Shown one piece after another: positions 2,940-44,200 of a stretch of 64,000 nucleotides of DNA. The position numbers and the translations under genes were made by a program. The notes under the pieces were generated by a model, which did not search any database, was not told the DNA's origin, and saw only the letters and a program-made list of their open reading frames with translations. Source of the stretch: Blepharisma japonicum (lineage: Eukaryota; Ciliophora; Heterotrichea; Heterotrichida; Blepharismidae); NCBI GenBank assembly GCA_949751835.1, contig CATKHK010000009.1, positions 186,001 through 250,000 on the forward strand, read 5' to 3'. The stretch's first letter is position 1, and every line of letters begins with the position of its first letter.

Positions 2940-5900
2940 ATGGCTGCAGTCTATCCTCCGGGTAGCAGTTTAACAAAATTGACGTCTAATCAAGATAATT
3001 CTCTCTCTAATCCCAGCTCTTCTGATGCAATTTGCCAAGTCTGCTATGGGAAAAATCCAAACAACCTAAAAAAGGTCGAATTTGCCATGCCAATCCACAC
3101 TTGTAAAACATGCGATCTCACTGTTCACAAGGCTTGTTACGGGATATCCCCGTCTGCAGAAGCAATGTTTTTCTGTGACCGCTGCATCGAAGTTGGCCCA
3201 CACGTGACCGTCAGCTGTGAAATCTGTCATCAAGTAAATGGCGCTCTAAAGAAATCTGGTGAAAAGTGGGTTCATGTCACCTGTGCTCTTTTTTCGCGAT
3301 TCACACACATTGCAGACTGGCTTGAAATGAAGCCTGACACCATACGTTCATCAGACGCTGACCAGTTCTGCAATGAGTGCAATCAGATAGGCCATGACAC
3401 TTTCAAATGTGACGAGTGCGAAAAAAGGAGCCATGCCCTGTGCATGCTTCAGAAAGGCACTTGGAATATGTCTGGACTATTACAGAAACGAACTGAGGTG
3501 TATTGTGAAGAACATATAGAAGGTCATGATGAGTACTGCTTCTGTGGAAAAGGCTATGTGGAAGGGGTTCAGTATATGATTTGCTGCGATAATTGCGATA
3601 TTTGGTACCATGGAGAATGCATTGGGATCACTTCACAGGTAGGAGACACTATTGAGCAATTTGTGTGCAAATTTTGTGAGCAGTGAAATAGCACAGCTAA
3701 AAAGCTGCTTAAAGAAGATGCGACTGATAAAAAGTCAAATGCCAAAGTTTCTAAGCAGTTTGTGAACTTTAAGCTGAAGGACTGGCTACTGCTGGCTAGA
3801 ATTGTGTTTAAAAGGGCTAATAAAGCTTTAGAGGAGAGATCAAAAATTGAGGATATGGAAGAAGTCATGGAATTTGCTGCAAAATTGCCGTTTGAAGTAG
3901 CGATTTTGAACAACTTGAATGCGAAGCTCCACAATGCGAAGACTCTGATCGGAAGGGCTAATAGTCTTTTAGACAAAATTCATGAAGACTTAGAAGAGAA
4001 TGAAATCAAGGACATCCAAGAAGTGATAACTGAAGCCAGAACGATTGGAGTTCATATTCCTCATGCTACCAGGCTTACACATCAAATTGAAAATTTCGAA
4101 AGAGTCAAAGAAATCAAGACTATGATTTCTAATTCTAAAAATTATTCATTTGCCGAGGCAAGGTCTTATTATGATAATCTTGTAAAACAAATGGAAAAGC
4201 CACCTAAACAGTTAGGAGAACTTAAAAATATGATTGATTCTTGCCAGAGTAGGATTTCTCTGCTGAAAAATGAGTTAAAAGAAAGCAAAGAAAATGGCTT
4301 GGAAAATAAAAAAAATACTGATTTTTTTATAGGGAAGTTGGAAGAAATTAAGGAAATACCATTTTTGATGGAAAATGAAATTAAAGCAATAGAAGATGAG
4401 TTAAAATTGGCAGAAGACTGGGATGCTAAATTTTTGAGTATTATGAAGCCTATATCGCCAGCTGATTTACAAGTTCACTTACATGAAGCTGGTGCGCTTA
4501 GTATGAAAACTCCTGCTATGAAAAATGCTCTTGAAAAATGGAAAGAGTATTCCCGATGGTTCAGCCAATCTCAAAATTTTTTAAACCCTGCTGAAAAATC
4601 GGTATTGCCGAAAATAGAGGAAATAAATGAGCATATAAACAATGGAGATCAAAATATTAGCTCATATGTTGATATAGCAGATGTCAAACAATCGTTACAT
4701 GCAAAAATTTCTCAGGCAGAAAATTGGCATTCGCAAGCAGTGGCGGCTGTTTCTACGAAAATCTCACAACAATTGATAAATCAGCTAATAAATGATGCAC
4801 AATCTTTAATCTGCAAATTCCCTGAACTTGATTTACTAGAAAAACGAGCCCACATCAACCAAAAAATCAACGAAACTCTGAATAAAAAGCATAAAGAAGA
4901 AGACCTTGAAATTCTTTTAAAAGATGCTTACGAATTTGACACAGATGATGAGCTAATCCAATTAGTGGCATCTAAAATTCAAAGCGTCAAAGAATTAAAA
5001 GAAAAAGTTCTTGAAGCTTTACAAGAAGAAAACAATCCTTCAGACTTATATTTGAAGCTATTAGAAGAGTTAAAAGCTGAAAAAACTGAACTTTTAGAGG
5101 AGAAACAGCAAGTTGAAGATAAAATAAAATCTCTGCAATGAATTGAACAAGTTAATGAGATTTTTAATGAACTTGATAAATCTGCTGAGGATGTATCAGC
5201 GAAAAAGAAAAAAGGAAACGAAATTGATGCTCTGAAAAGCTTGATAGTAAAGGCTGAAAAAATTAAATATAAAGATGCAAAAACTGATGGCTATTTAGAA
5301 GAATTAGCTTTTAGGTTATGGGAATTGGAATTTCAAAGGTTTGATATGTGTGATGAAATTTCACTAGAACAGCTTCAAGATCTTAAAATCAGAGCTTCTT
5401 ATTTGAAAACACGCCAGCCTGAATCTCTAATCCAATTTCAGTCAATTTCTAAAGAAGTCGATGAGAGTATTGCATTTTTTGAAAATCTAGCACAAACTGA
5501 TATACCAACAATTTTTAGTGGAAATGTTATAGAATTGAAGCAAAACCTCGAATTTTATAAAAATAAGCTTGAAAATCAAGGAATTATCTTCCCGGAAAAA
5601 TACAACAAATTTTTAGCATGGGATAAGTGAATTAACTGAAGTTTAGCCGCAGAATCTTTATTTAACTCCTCAGAAAAACCATCAATTGACAAACTCTACG
5701 ATTTAAACCTAGAAGTAATTCCCCTAGGTATTTCCAATGAATTACCATCAGTCAAAAAACTCACTGAAGAAATCGCAAATTATGAAAAGTGGCTGTATCG
5801 CTACACTTCTTATTCATCAACCCGTCGTGCTTTTTCTAAGCCAGGCCTAGAAGTGAAAAATTACTTAAAATTAATGAAAGAAAAGCCTAAATTAACAACT

Positions 5901-8900
5901 CTTCAACTTCAAGACCTGCTTCAAAGCGCAAAATCTCTTCGAACTTGTTGCGATCAAGAAATCCTTATAATGGAGCAAGATCTAAAAAAGCTTGAATTAT
6001 GGACTAACAAAGAATTAATATTTGCTGGAAGACCATATGAAGATCTATTAATTGACTGCAAAAAAAGCTATGATGAATTCTTAGAAAGTGAAAGCTGCAA
6101 AGAATTTTATGCTACCATAAAAGAATATTTTTTCGAAAATTTCATAGAGCACGAAAATTTTGGCATAAAATTAAGTAGCTTAGAATGAAATTTTAGAGCT
6201 CAAGGAATTTTACAACAAAAAGGAAGAATATTAGAAGAAGTATGGGAAGAAGTTTATGGAGCCACAGAACAATTAGATAAAAAGATTTTAGATGAGTCAA
6301 CTTTAGATAAGATAAAAAGGCTTCAACAATTGAAACAGCAAATAGAAGAAGATGTAAGAAAAATTAAACATTTTGTTCCACAAGGCGAAATGAAAGCAAT
6401 TACTTTTGAAGAGCTGGATATTTTATATGATAAAATATCTACAAGCAAAATAATACTCAAGGATGAAAATTTTGTTAAAAACCTGTTAGAAAAAACCAGG
6501 AATTTTTCACAGAGATTCAATGATATGATAACTAATAAAGCTTCTATTGAAGAGTTTAAAGCATTTCAAGATGACATTGAAAAGCACCCTATTTCAATAT
6601 CAGAGTTTTCAAACAAGCTTAAAGAAATTTTGGAAAAAGCGAACAATATCAGCCTTCGTATGAGAATACTTAAAGAAAATGCAGGAAAAAATAAGATGGA
6701 AAAAGCCAAAGTTGAGCAGTTTTTGCTTGAATATAACAATACTGAGGTAAAGCTAGAAGATGCTGATATATTAATTGAAGAATTAGAAAGGGGAAATCAA
6801 ATTCTTGCAGAGGGTTTTGAAGTAGTTGAAAAACTAGATGCGACTATGGAGGAGCTGAATTCAATAAGTGGAAGATTAAATAATCTTCATATTCATATGG
6901 GACAAGAAGAAAAAAATCTGAAAATTAAAATATGGAAACTTCGAGTCACTCTTTCACAGGGAATCAAAGTTAGCTTCCCTATACTTCAAGGCTGGCTAAA
7001 TGAAGGCTTGCAAATGAAAGACCCAAGCTTAGCTGAAAGTATTGAAAAGCTTGAAGGGTTTGTCAAAAAAGGGGATAGCTACAAAGAAAGACTCGCAGCT
7101 TGCAGCAGCTTGGAAGAAATCCAAGAAATCGAAAAAGAAGCTGAATCCTTGCCATTTGATTTAGCCCATTCTTTTATTGAGCATAAAACCCGCATCAATC
7201 TTGGCGGTGGGAAAAAAGAGCCTAGACCGTCAGAAACAGTTCCTTCTAAACACCCAGCTCAAACAGATGATCCACTTCCTTATAATGACCCAGCCCGTAT
7301 GTCTCAAATTACAGCACTTGAAAAAACGATCACTCATGATATTAATTATGATTGGCACAAACATATGGGGAAAGCTAAAAGATATGCTGTAAGGTTGGAA
7401 GATATTATTTTTAAAAATCATCATGGGAGCAAATATAGAAAAAGTGTTGACAGGATGATAAGAATTATCAAAAGATATCAAGAGTTTGAAGGATTTTCTA
7501 AGAAATTAAGCAAAGGAGATATCACTGCTGACGAACTTTCAGTGTTAAACCCTAAAGAAGCTAAAGAAGTTAAAGTAATCAAAAGATTGTTTGATGGAGA
7601 GCCAAAGATATGCCTAACTATTAATAAAAGTAAACTTACAGAAAATGATAACCCAGAGTCAGGCCAACCAGTTAAAAAACTAAAACTTGCAACTACGAAG
7701 ACAGAAGCCCCACAAATTTCACCTCAACCAGCTCAAATTCCAAAAATATCTCCAAAGCCTGTTTCTAAGGAACCACCTAAGCCAATTTCTACCCCAACTC
7801 CATTAATAAAAGCAACACCTAAGCCTCCACCCCCAAAGCCCACACCAAAGCCTGTGAGTGATTTCAAAGTCACAAATCTTATAAGCGAAATAGAAGCTAA
7901 TAAGAAAAATCAGTCAAAAAGTTTGCTTGTAAAGAATGAAATCAGCCAGCCGCAATTGGCAAGCGAAAAATACAGAACCCCTCAGCATCTATCTGATTCT
8001 TCAGCTGTGTCCAGATCAACTGCAGCAGATGAAGAATGAAGGGAACTTAGCAAATTTCGACTGGAGCATAGTGGATTTACTACTACATCTGGAGATAAGC
8101 AAATACCCCAAAAGCGTGGGCCTGAGGCTATTGATCAGCTTCCACCCAAAAGATCAAAATATGAAAGAAACCAAGAAGGAAGATTTAGTAGCGAAGAAGA
8201 AGAGGAAGAAGAAGACAAGGGACCATCTAAAAAGGAAATAGAAAAGAATAAAGAAAAATCAGAAGAATACAGTGTATTAGAGCTTGCCCAAAAAAATGAT
8301 TATGCAAAAAAGCATAAGAAAAAAGGTAAATTATACGACCCATTTTCAGTGCCTGCTCCTAAAAATAAAGCTCCAGTTGGAAGTTTATTAAAAGTGTGGT
8401 CTGGAAAGCTTGAGTATGGAAAACACTTTATTAATGTAGTGATGCACTCTGTCGACAACATTGAGTCATTTCAAAAAATGCCTCAACTTGGTAGCAAAAT
8501 TTCAGTTCAAGGGAGAACTAAACAAGACGAGCTAGAAGTTTATATTTCACAAAATGCATCTGGCTCAGTCAGCAAGCTAATAGCAACAGCTTGGATAGAG
8601 CCAACTGAAAGTAATGAAAGAGACTTTAGTGACCTCGCTCGTGATTTAACTGGCAAAGGTAGATCAGCTGTCATAAGAATTGATAACTCCCTCACTATTT
8701 ATTTAACCTCCCTAAATGAAAGTTTCCAATCCTTTTTATCCTCAGTTCGTATTAACATCAATAGAAAAATTGATGAAACCGTAATCCCACACATATCCAC
8801 TAAAGAAAAGCTCGGCTGTATTTTATTCTTTAAGAAAACAGCCATGAGCTCTTCCTCATATATAAACCCTGACGTCATTGTAAAAATTGAGCCAACATCA

Positions 8901-9422
8901 ATGCCAGAAATCGATGATTTGCCTGAAAAAGAGCAAGAAATGTCACCTATTACTGACGAAGAAGAAAATCCATCTTCTTCTAATGATCAGCTTCCTAAAG
9001 CTATACAAGAAATTTTGTCAGAGCTTAAAAGAAACCCTGGGGACCAGTCACAAATTTTAAATACTTTGCAACAAGCGATTTCAACAATAAACCCACAAGA
9101 ATTAGCACCAAATAATTCAGAAATTAATGATTTGATTTCAGCCATCAAAGAGCAGGTTAAGCAAGAGTCACAGCAAAAACAGCAGCCTGCTGTGCAAAAT
9201 GTTAACCAATTTTTGTCACAGAATTTCCCATTACCACCACAAAGACAGCAGCCTGGGTATATGTATATGCCACAGCAGAATTATATGTATCCTCCACAGC
9301 CTATATATCCTCCTGGACAATATTATCAAGGACAACCTCCACCACAACCACCTGCACAATATTACAGACCACCTTCTCCTGAGAGAAAGCATGATGATCC
9401 AAGAAGACAAAACAGGTATTAA
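2940..9422 (+). CDS. Giant PHD / PLU-1-like / TFIIS-central / SPOC chromatin protein
   Basis: One 2160-residue protein, continuous when six TGAs (3684, 5139, 5628, 5637, 6186, 8037) are read as Trp; all segments share the same frame. Domains in order: PHD finger from C32-x2-C35 (about 32-82); an extended PHD/HC5HC2H finger (about 90-192); a third PHD (about 199-247, CFCGKG...CCDNCDIWYHGEC); a long helical region (about 265-1330) with repeated W-x2-A and LP spacing like the PLU-1 region of KDM5 demethylases; a TFIIS central-type domain (about 1460-1553, with KYRKSVDRMIRIIK and GDITADELSVLNPKEAKE); Pro/Lys-rich linkers; a SPOC domain (about 1812-1967, VWSGKLEYGK to LGCILFFKK); and a Gln/Pro-rich tail. 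TFIIM plus SPOC is the DIDO/PHF3/Bye1 pattern, whose members bind RNA polymerase II and its phosphorylated CTD. No JmjC domain is present. Likely role: nuclear histone reader coupled to elongation (inference). Confidence 0.88.
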
Positions 9423-41275: not shown

Positions 41276-44200
41276 TTAATTTCTTTTTGGCATAATTGAC
41301 ATTCGTCTTGCTTCTATATCTTGCATCATTTTATCGACTGAAGAATTTTGATTGGTATTTCTGATAGACACTCTTCTCCCATTGTTTTCTTCTTTTTGCT
41401 GCCGCTTATTTTTAATTTCATCCGCCAGTGCTTTCGAATTAGCAGCTTTTGACGAGTTTTCTTGTTTTTGCTGTAATGCAGCTTGTCTTCTTGCTTCAAT
41501 TCTTGCTTTCTTTTCTTGATCTTCTTTGGCTTTAAAGTATTTATTTTTATTGGTCTCAAATGATGTTATAAAATAATTAAATTTGTCAGTAAACTCTTCA
41601 GGCTTCAAATCTTTTGCATTTATAACATAAAGCTCACAAAGTTCAAGGAACTTTGTGTCTAACGCTTGAATTCTTGATTTTAATTGATTTACAGTTTCAC
41701 TTACTTCTTGGTAGAATTTCGATAATTTTTCGCTTATTTTATCAGCAGCCCTCACGCTTTGAGAGTCTATTGCTTTTTTAACCAAATTTACCTTTGCAGT
41801 TACTTCGTTTAGATCAATAGCAAGCTGTGATAGTGGGAATTTTGATACAAAGTCAATATCAGAGAAATCCTGTACCAGCCCTAGCAGCTCAGGCTTACTT
41901 TTTTCACAGAAAGTTATAATATAATCCAAAAGTGTCGTTTTCCCATCTTGTCCTCTCATATCAACAACTTTAGCTAATGAATCAATAGAAAATCCAAAAG
42001 CTCCACCTCTTGCACTTGTGCCATTTAAATAATTTCCACAAGCCAAAACAATTTCCAGTACCGCCTTTAATTTTTCACTACTTTTAAGTGCTGAATAAGT
42101 CCTCTCAATTTTTTCAACTTTTTTGGTTAATTCTCCAATCAGCTCAGCGTTCGTAAAAGTAAATATAATAGCCTCTACCCTAAATTTGAATCCAGGCACA
42201 TCTTTAAGTGCATAGAAAAATCTATCAGAAGGTGCCAGTAAATCTAAATCTCCTTCATAGCTGGTAACCAGCTGTATTTCACTATCATCTGGCAAAGCAC
42301 CTTTTAATGACGACCATGCGCCTTCGCTGACAGTCTGAGTATCAGCTGAAAGAAAAGCTTCAACTAATGCAGAATGTGACAATCTCAATTTCCCTAAAAT
42401 GAGCTCTACAGTTTGTCGTCTCTCTTTAGATAAATGGCTAATTTTTTCGACTTTTTTGACTTCTTCTTTTTTCTCTTCTTTTTGTTCACCGTTGGCTTCT
42501 TTTTTCTCAGGTGCTTTTTTCTGGGCAAATAGATCAATGAGTAAAGTTACGTCTAAATTGACTTTCGAATCGTCTGCGGTTTTTCAGATTGATTTTTCGA
42601 GCTTTTGGACAGGCACAGGGGTCCAAAATAGAGATTTCATAGGGACTGCAGGATTTATTTTCACTTTTTGACGGAGAACTGTCATCATAGATGGCCCTGG
42701 GGGTGGCATAGATCCGGGAGGTGGCGGAGGAGCTCTTTGACCTGGGATTGGAGGAGGGGGAGGGGCTTGCCCTGGGATTGGAGGAGGTGGAGGAGCTCTT
42801 TGACCTGGGATTGGAGGAGGCGGAGGAGCTTGCCCTGGGATTGGAGGAGGTGGAGGACCTCTGCCAGGAATTGGAGGAGGTGGAGGTGCTGTATTTGGCA
42901 TTGGAGGAGGTGGTGGGCCTCTTCCTGGCATTGGAGGGGGTGGAGGCGCTGTATTTGGCATTGGAGGAGGCGGAGGAGCTCTACCTGGAATTGGAGGAGG
43001 CGGGGGTGGAGCCGAGCCAGTAGGCATTGGAGGTGGTGGAGGAGCTCTATTAGGCATTGGAGGAGGCGGAGGGGTATTATTAGGCATTGGAGGCGGTGGA
43101 GGAGCTTTATTTGGCATTGGAGGCGGTGGGGGTGGAGGAGCTTTATTTGGCATTGGAGGTGGCGGAGGGGCATTATTTGGCATTGGTGGAGGTGGAGGTG
43201 GAGGAGTTCTATTTGGCATAGGAGGCGGTGGAGGAGCATTATTTGGCATTGGAGGAGGTGGAGGTGGAGGAGCTCTATTTGGCATAGGAGGTGGTGGAGG
43301 AGCATTATTAGGTATTGGAGGTGGGGGTGGCGGAGGAGCTTTATTAGGCATTGGAGGAGGCGGAGGGGCATTATTAGGCATTGGAGGCGGTGGGGGTGGA
43401 GGAGCTTTATTTGGCATTGGAGGTGGTGGAGGAGCTTTATTTGGCATTGGAGGCGGTGGGGGTGGAGGAGCTTTATTTGGCATTGGAGGTGGTGGAGGGG
43501 CATTATTTGGCATTGGTGGAGGTGGAGGTGGAGGAGTTCTATTTGGCATAGGAGGTGGTGGAGGAGCATTATTTGGCATTGGTGGAGGTGGAGGTGGAGG
43601 AGCTCTATTTGGCATAGGAGGTGGTGGAGGAGCATTATTAGGCATTGGAGGTGGGGGTGGCGGAGGAGCTTTATTCGGCATTGGAGGAGGTGGAGGGGCA
43701 TTATTAGGCATTGGAGGCGGTGGTGGAGCATTACTCCGCATTGGAGGAGGGACAGGCACACTATTTTGAGAATTTTGTCTCTGCTCTATATTTTGTAGCT
43801 GCCCATGCAATTCAGCAACTTTTATCTCTAGCTGCTCTTTGTTTCTATTTTCAATTTCATTTAATTGTTCCAGCTTGAGTATCATTTCTCTTGACATCTC
43901 CAATTCTTCATTTAATTTTGCTTTTTCAGTCTCCATTTTCACCAGTACCTGCTTAATGTCAGTGAATTCCTTTACCTCTTCCCTATGTTTTCCTACATCA
44001 AGTGCCTGCAGCTGCTCTTCTAACTCATATTTCTCTTTCCTTACCTTCTCAATTTCTTTATCCCTTGCTTCTAAATTCTGTTCAAGGCTTTCTAATTTTT
44101 TTAATTTTTCAACAATTTCTTTTTGATTTTCTTTTATTTCGTCAAGCCTAAAGTCATTTGACAGCTCAAGATTTTCTCTAGAAGTTTCAGTAAGCTGGGT

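Follow-up and report, generated by a model that had tools for sequence, protein, structure and literature searches.

We analyzed a 64,000-nucleotide stretch of DNA (C9:186001-250000 of genome G000, which comprises 45,185,585 bases in 224 contigs; hereafter the window) and focused on the plus-strand frame at window positions 2940–9422, whose product, P0001, combines three zinc-finger modules with PLU-1, TFIIM and SPOC homology. Under the standard code this frame contains seven stops, six TGA codons and the terminal TAA; with TGA read as tryptophan, it becomes one 2160-residue open reading frame running from ATG to TAA. Over the same interval the other two frames of this strand, offset by one and two bases, contain 154 and 252 standard stops, respectively, and the probability of finding 2160 codons free of TAA and TAG, calculated from the base composition of the region alone, is approximately 9e-56. 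The features of the locus are as follows:

2940..9422, plus strand: single open reading frame of 2160 codons (TGA = Trp), ATG to TAA, from frame analysis and paralog comparison
3021..3194, plus strand: PHD finger 1, residues ~28–85 (PHD_2 match at 54–83; Pfam PF13831, 30.1 bits, cut-off 28)
3213..3515, plus strand: extended PHD (ePHD; zf-HC5HC2H_2), residues 92–192 (Pfam PF13832, 38 bits, cut-off 27)
3537..3677, plus strand: PHD finger 2, CFP1/BPTF/DIDO-like, residues 200–246 (Pfam PF00628, 31.1 bits, cut-off 24)
3663..5465, plus strand: PLU-1-like helical region, residues ~242–842 (Pfam PF08429, best stretch 242–599, 62.4 bits for the whole protein)
5466..7259, plus strand: further putative helical region with no confident family match, residues 843–1440 (weak PLU-1 at 1177–1286, 18.2 bits; low-confidence helical model)
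7284..7559, plus strand: TFIIM or TFIIS-like domain, residues ~1449–1540 (TFIIS_M, 20.5 bits, cut-off 29.2; profile of P0001 and its paralog to PHF3, 2dme)
7560..8381, plus strand: linker rich in lysine, proline, serine and glutamate (from the sequence; 41.6% identity to the paralog over residues 1591–1780)
8394..8750, plus strand: SPOC domain, residues 1819–1937 (Pfam, 25.1 bits for the whole protein, 30.2 as a piece, cut-off 25)

Searching the genome with P0001 yielded nine matches: P0001 itself, one full-length paralog and seven restricted to the zinc-finger end (query residues 19–279). The paralog, P0002 (C33:249760-256245, minus strand), has 2165 codons, including ten TGA, and carries all modules in the order of P0001; in both genes a TAA immediately precedes the ATG. 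The two proteins are identical at 1015 of 2121 aligned positions (47.9%), and the conservation extends along the whole chain: 50.9% in the first PHD, 45.0% in the ePHD, 53.7% in the second PHD, 44.9% in the helical region, 44.1% in TFIIM, 41.6% in the linker and 58.3% at the C-terminus, with the SPOC region (residues 1790–1945) being the best conserved part at 71.2%. A simple Nei–Gojobori calculation over the whole length gave proportions of synonymous and nonsynonymous differences (pS and pN) of 0.735 and 0.335, respectively, with synonymous divergence (dS) near saturation; pN fell to 0.166 in SPOC. By these values the pair is under purifying selection.

The alignment of the two copies also supports the reading of TGA as tryptophan, because 12 of the 13 columns in which at least one copy uses TGA hold tryptophan in both, the remaining column pairing tyrosine with tryptophan. 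This code fits a ciliate host, as in Blepharisma; the Blepharisma stoltei genome is described as gene-dense, with UGA encoding tryptophan and introns of 15–16 bases (PMC9942806). A search of the frame for the intron-like forms GTA-N9-TAG and GTA-N10-TAG found none of the former (15 bases) and three of the latter (16 bases), which we disfavor as introns because removal of one would disrupt the frame conserved in the paralog. Fusion of two adjacent genes, or of misassembled sequence, by TGA readthrough would explain why six TGA codons break the frame under the standard code, but such an artefact is highly improbable: the full-length paralog with equal module order sits on another contig, which makes chance or misassembly a poor explanation of the fusion, and the tryptophan columns and the lack of 15-base intron-like stretches point the same way. 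The fusion proposed in an earlier note on this DNA is therefore real and encoded in a single frame.

At the N-terminus, where the earlier note had placed three zinc-finger modules, Pfam profiles confirmed a PHD, an ePHD and a second PHD. The best match of this end in the PDB was JADE1, both as an H3–JADE1 fusion chain (E 4.6e-14) and as the PHD–ePHD chain of JADE1 alone (8gdx, E 5.5e-12 over residues 28–196). PHD finger 2 matched CFP1 (E 3.9e-11), BPTF (4.4e-10) and DIDO1 (1.2e-8), and in alignment with CFP1 and BPTF it keeps a cage-type tryptophan, W222 (codon 3603–3605), at a position that we take to be part of the H3K4me3 cage. The N-terminal PHD–ePHD double reader is shared with JADE, BRPF and AF10, in which we know of no PLU-1, TFIIM or SPOC.

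The same pair of families, PF13831 followed by PF13832, occurs in Paramecium DevPF1 and DevPF2, likewise a paralog pair in a ciliate, although these are the only two domains predicted there (PMC11385659). DevPF1 and DevPF2 act in genome editing, and residues 54–192 of P0001 have their composition, so that the fusion might be specific to development and serve non-coding transcription while the macronuclear genome is rearranged, joining in one chain a DevPF-like reader and a TFIIS4-like RNA polymerase II (Pol II) module that are separate in Paramecium. A correlation with TFIIS4 knock-down is seen for some replicates of the DevPF2 knock-down, and the authors raise the possibility that in Paramecium two proteins divide Bye1-like functions between them (PMC11385659). 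We regard this explanation as doubtful: the PHD–ePHD pair is also that of JADE, BRPF and AF10, both Pfam families match other genes of the same genome (L003, L005), TFIIS4 was not detected in the DevPF pull-downs (PMC11385659), and Bye1 and PHF3 work in ordinary transcription (PMC4100922, PMC8526623). If its modules act as in their relatives, the fusion allows a direct test of the proposal that Bye1-like functions are shared out between DevPF and TFIIS4.

The region following the zinc fingers had been described in the earlier note as roughly 1000 residues of PLU-1-like sequence. PLU-1 is present, scoring 62.4 bits in whole P0001 and 95.7 bits in P0002 (cut-off 28.5), but its extent was overstated. 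Tiles of P0001 scored 38.9 bits at residues 251–550, 28.4 at 551–850 and 18.2 at 1151–1460, and the tile 851–1150 had no PLU-1 match in Pfam. The first helical piece of P0002 reached 90.5 bits; the second gave none at E 0.1, but the genome scan assigned 28.8 bits to a stretch there. As controls, reversed residues 251–850 and three further proteins from this genome, chosen by eye as coiled-coil-like, gave no PLU-1 match at E 0.1. On the basis of the tile and control scores, we set the PLU-1 likeness, which we find convincing, at about 600 residues (~242–842) of a helical region of ~1200; the remainder appears helical and bears no family name. A PDB search with the profile of both helical regions returned nothing at E 1. 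The genome scan for PLU-1 scores the best candidates only and hence gives a lower bound: at least 15 matches were found, six on C11, five on C33, three on C9 and one on C57. The C57 protein is exocyst-like and scored 23.5 bits, below the cut-off, which marks how high helical proteins unrelated to PLU-1 may score.

PLU-1 homology beside PHD fingers is a feature of KDM5 (JARID1), which, to our knowledge, contains neither TFIIM nor SPOC. Unlike KDM5, the fusion pair has no JmjN, ARID or JmjC in its Pfam listings; these scans were set to report up to E 10, but HMMER's filters discard most matches above 0.1. KDM5 membership was rejected, as the catalytic JmjN–ARID–JmjC half is absent from these listings. 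The genome contains five JmjC matches (those on C4, C42 and C5 pass the cut-off, those on C2 and C25 do not) and four JmjN matches (those on C4 and C42 pass); none lies on C9, C33 or C11, and in these scans PLU-1 and JmjC matches never fell on the same contig. The C11 protein P0003 (L031:4652-8353, minus strand; 1234 residues) carries PLU-1 at 194.7 bits in five stretches together with one PHD and, like the fusion pair, has no JmjC listed by Pfam; unlike the pair, it has no ePHD, TFIIM or SPOC listed. PLU-1, usually treated as part of the KDM5 demethylase, thus exists in genes without the demethylase.

The helical regions of the pair resemble P0003 marginally in BLAST (best E 2e-4), and their profile matched P0003 at E 2.7e-6 and reversed P0003 at E 2 in a two-sequence database, a weak match of 12.3 bits with a bias of 46.9. 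A 43-residue repeat model derived from P0003 found no unit of at least 3 bits in P0001 or P0002 (best 0.1–2.3; reversed controls up to 3.0); a repeat unit common to P0003 and the pair is unsupported, its scores lying under those of the reversed controls. On C5, a 1088-residue frame (L055:1579-4842) carries JmjC together with an ARID match too weak to reach the cut-off, and no PLU-1 is listed for it at E 0.01. Speculatively, this protein and P0003 might represent a KDM5 split over two genes.

The TFIIM domain, also claimed in the earlier note, is clearer in the paralog. In P0002, TFIIS_M (PF07500) scored 26.5 bits in the whole protein, below the cut-off, 33.4 bits as a piece and 33.7 bits in the genome scan, the last two above it; it was not listed for whole P0001 up to E 10, and the P0001 copy taken alone is weak. 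The profile of both copies had seven PDB matches up to E 10, of which the sole significant one was the TFIIM domain of PHF3 (2dme, E 1.7e-5; next match 0.15). The genome scan for TFIIM (E up to 10) detected five proteins, on C33, C73, C18, C49 and C111, the P0001 domain having come from the piece scan only. The C111 protein is an ordinary TFIIS with Zn_ribbon_TFIIS. For the proteins on C73, C18 and C49, Pfam listed no SPOC, nor did the SPOC scan match anywhere on these contigs; in these genome scans TFIIM and SPOC occur together on C9 and C33 only. Neither Zn_ribbon_TFIIS (PF01096, up to E 10) nor an N-terminal Med26-type bundle was listed by Pfam for P0001 or P0002, and identity as a standalone TFIIS was rejected because the zinc ribbon is missing from these listings. 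Three similar proteins of ~480 residues (L032:1796-3241, plus; L033:2630-4090, minus; L034:2275-3729, plus) have strong TFIIM scores of 75.6–82.7 bits; their N-termini look BAH- and PHD-like by eye, and Pfam lists neither at E 0.1.

A SPOC domain at the C-terminal side, as the earlier note had it, was recovered by Pfam above the cut-off of 25 in both copies, barely so in whole P0001 (25.1 bits; 30.2 as a piece) and at 28.5 bits in P0002. The genome scan for SPOC (E up to 10) found nine loci, and the seven other than the pair are 16–20% identical to the P0001 SPOC. A profile of all nine stretches matched FPA (E 7.9e-9) and PHF3 (E 2.3e-5) in the PDB, which supports the alignment rather than the pair by itself, because seven of the nine rows come from other SPOC genes. 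Two of these, L041:2341-3126 and L042:2991-3743, encode small proteins with a C-terminal SPOC and no RRM by eye; the other five contain RRM-like sequence by eye.

To place PHF3 residues on this alignment, we applied an offset of 1194 to chain 6ic8, as deduced from its construct (1199–1356) and a four-residue tag; each of the six positions that the PHF3 study names (PMC8526623) then shows the correct letter. R1859 and R1908 of P0001 are the equivalents of PHF3 R1248 and R1297 and are arginine in both copies in all three alignments; the equivalent of R1295 is lysine in the pair. Several SPOC domains are phosphoserine readers (PMC9834408), and in PHF3 SPOC, R1248 and R1297 bind one phosphoserine and K1267 and K1309 the other (PMC8526623). 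Given this division, the predicted binding mode of the pair's SPOC is likely one strong phosphoserine patch. A target in the C-terminal domain (CTD) of Pol II is present in the host, since its RPB1 (C65, L057) carries seven tandem YSPTSPx-like heptads (YSPTSPA, YSPTSPH, YSPTSPA, YSPTSPA, YSPTSPA, YSPTSHT and YSPTSPA). The heptad run lies in a longer tail rich in serine, proline and tyrosine with looser repeats.

Taken with the order of the modules, these features resemble the Bye1/PHF3/DIDO proteins, in which we know of no PLU-1. The plan of DIDO, PHF3 and the family that includes Bye1 is PHD, TFIIS-like domain (TLD) and SPOC (PMC9834408, PMC8526623). The fusion pair has the same elements in equal order, including a TFIIS-like domain, below the Pfam cut-off in P0001, with no zinc ribbon listed; it keeps the two SPOC arginines, and its best PDB match for TFIIM is that of PHF3. 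It differs by an added N-terminal PHD–ePHD, by the ~1200-residue PLU-1/helical region between PHD and TFIIM, and by a SPOC that has lost the tyrosine (Y1291) and K1309. We consider it reasonably probable that P0001 and P0002 are enlarged Pol II elongation regulators of the Bye1/PHF3/DIDO type, forming a family of two in a heterotrich-like ciliate, which suggests that this plan occurs, strongly enlarged, in a ciliate.

Coupling of histone reading to Pol II by the fusion protein is our best inference as to its function. In Bye1, the PHD binds H3K4me3 and recruits the protein to promoters, and the TLD binds Pol II (PMC4100922); in PHF3, SPOC docks on Pol II and the TLD competes with TFIIS (PMC8526623). 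By analogy, the PHD–ePHD and the second PHD, with an H3K4me3-type cage in P0001 that is degraded in P0002, would tether the fusion to nucleosomes that lie near promoters or are marked in another way. TFIIM would contact Pol II at the TFIIS binding place and, because the TFIIS zinc ribbon is absent, we propose that it would not stimulate cleavage and would thereby compete with TFIIS. SPOC may anchor on the phosphorylated CTD via its two arginines, and the ~1200-residue PLU-1/helical array might space the chromatin-reading end from the polymerase-binding end or act between them as a scaffold that binds partners. If the modules act as in their relatives, a single chain would physically tie histone reading to Pol II elongation.

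Several observations weigh against assigning the pair to elongation control of this type. The cut-out TFIIM piece of P0001 reached only 20.5 bits (E 6.8e-4), below the cut-off of 29.2, and the second PHD of P0002 has leucine in place of the cage-type tryptophan in the CFP1/BPTF alignment. In both copies the SPOC equivalent of PHF3 Y1291 is aspartate, a tyrosine kept in all seven other SPOC stretches of the genome, and that of K1309 is leucine; K1267 is matched by lysine in one of three alignments. The profile of the pair's SPOC found no SPOC structure in the PDB, its six matches being antibody-type chains that we rejected as chance hits (E 0.081 or worse), and its comparison with the profile of the seven other SPOCs fell short of significance (E 0.057, probability about 1%), so the FPA and PHF3 matches of the nine-stretch profile may rest mainly on those seven. 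AlphaFold models from two-row alignments had a mean predicted local distance difference test (pLDDT) score of 34.4 for TFIIM–SPOC and 47.0 for the helical region, the latter usable only as "helical". Moreover, human PHF3 is reported to bind Pol II by SPOC alone, its TLD and PHD being dispensable in the experiments described (PMC8526623).

The low TFIIM score of P0001 and the loss of the SPOC tyrosine and K1309 would also agree with a chromatin scaffold or corepressor subunit, in which PLU-1 and the PHDs bind partners and histones while TFIIM and SPOC have diverged from Pol II binding; SPOC would then recognize another phosphoprotein, comparable to the SPOC of SHARP, which binds SMRT/NCoR (PMC9834408). 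However, both SPOC arginines are kept, SPOC is the best conserved part of the pair, and the paralog TFIIM piece exceeds the cut-off, and we find a scaffold of this kind unlikely. We return to the Bye1/PHF3/DIDO-type regulator; because the SPOC tyrosine and K1309 of patch 1 are replaced and K1267 of that patch is matched in one of three alignments, the pair is best filed as a variant working like PHF3 rather than as a proven member. We take those residues as belonging to the binding mode of PHF3, whereas the family is defined by its order of domains. A more specific proposal is quite unlikely as a whole: a single-chain heterotrich chromatin-to-polymerase adaptor composed of a DevPF-type reader, a demethylase-free PLU-1 array and a PHF3-type Pol II clamp, with roles split between the paralogs, H3K4me3 reading being kept by one and lost by the other, and at least one of them directing Pol II in non-coding transcription of the developing macronucleus.

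No description of a PHD–ePHD–PHD–PLU-1–TFIIM–SPOC architecture appeared among the titles and abstract openings listed from the open-access literature. Searches for relatives with two short peptide patterns each in viral_contigs and genome_contigs (prokaryotes) returned none and are uninformative on other ciliates; an NCBIfam scan gave nothing useful.

Two further observations concern the genome and the window. On both C4 (L053) and C42 (L054), a JmjN–JmjC gene lies beside a similar coiled-coil gene (with DUF4200 in the C42 copy), which suggests a segmental or whole-genome duplication. Within the window, positions 42001–44000 have a GC content of 0.476 and a GC skew of 0.335, compared with a GC content of 0.28–0.40 in the rest, and fall inside a 1465-residue frame on the minus strand.

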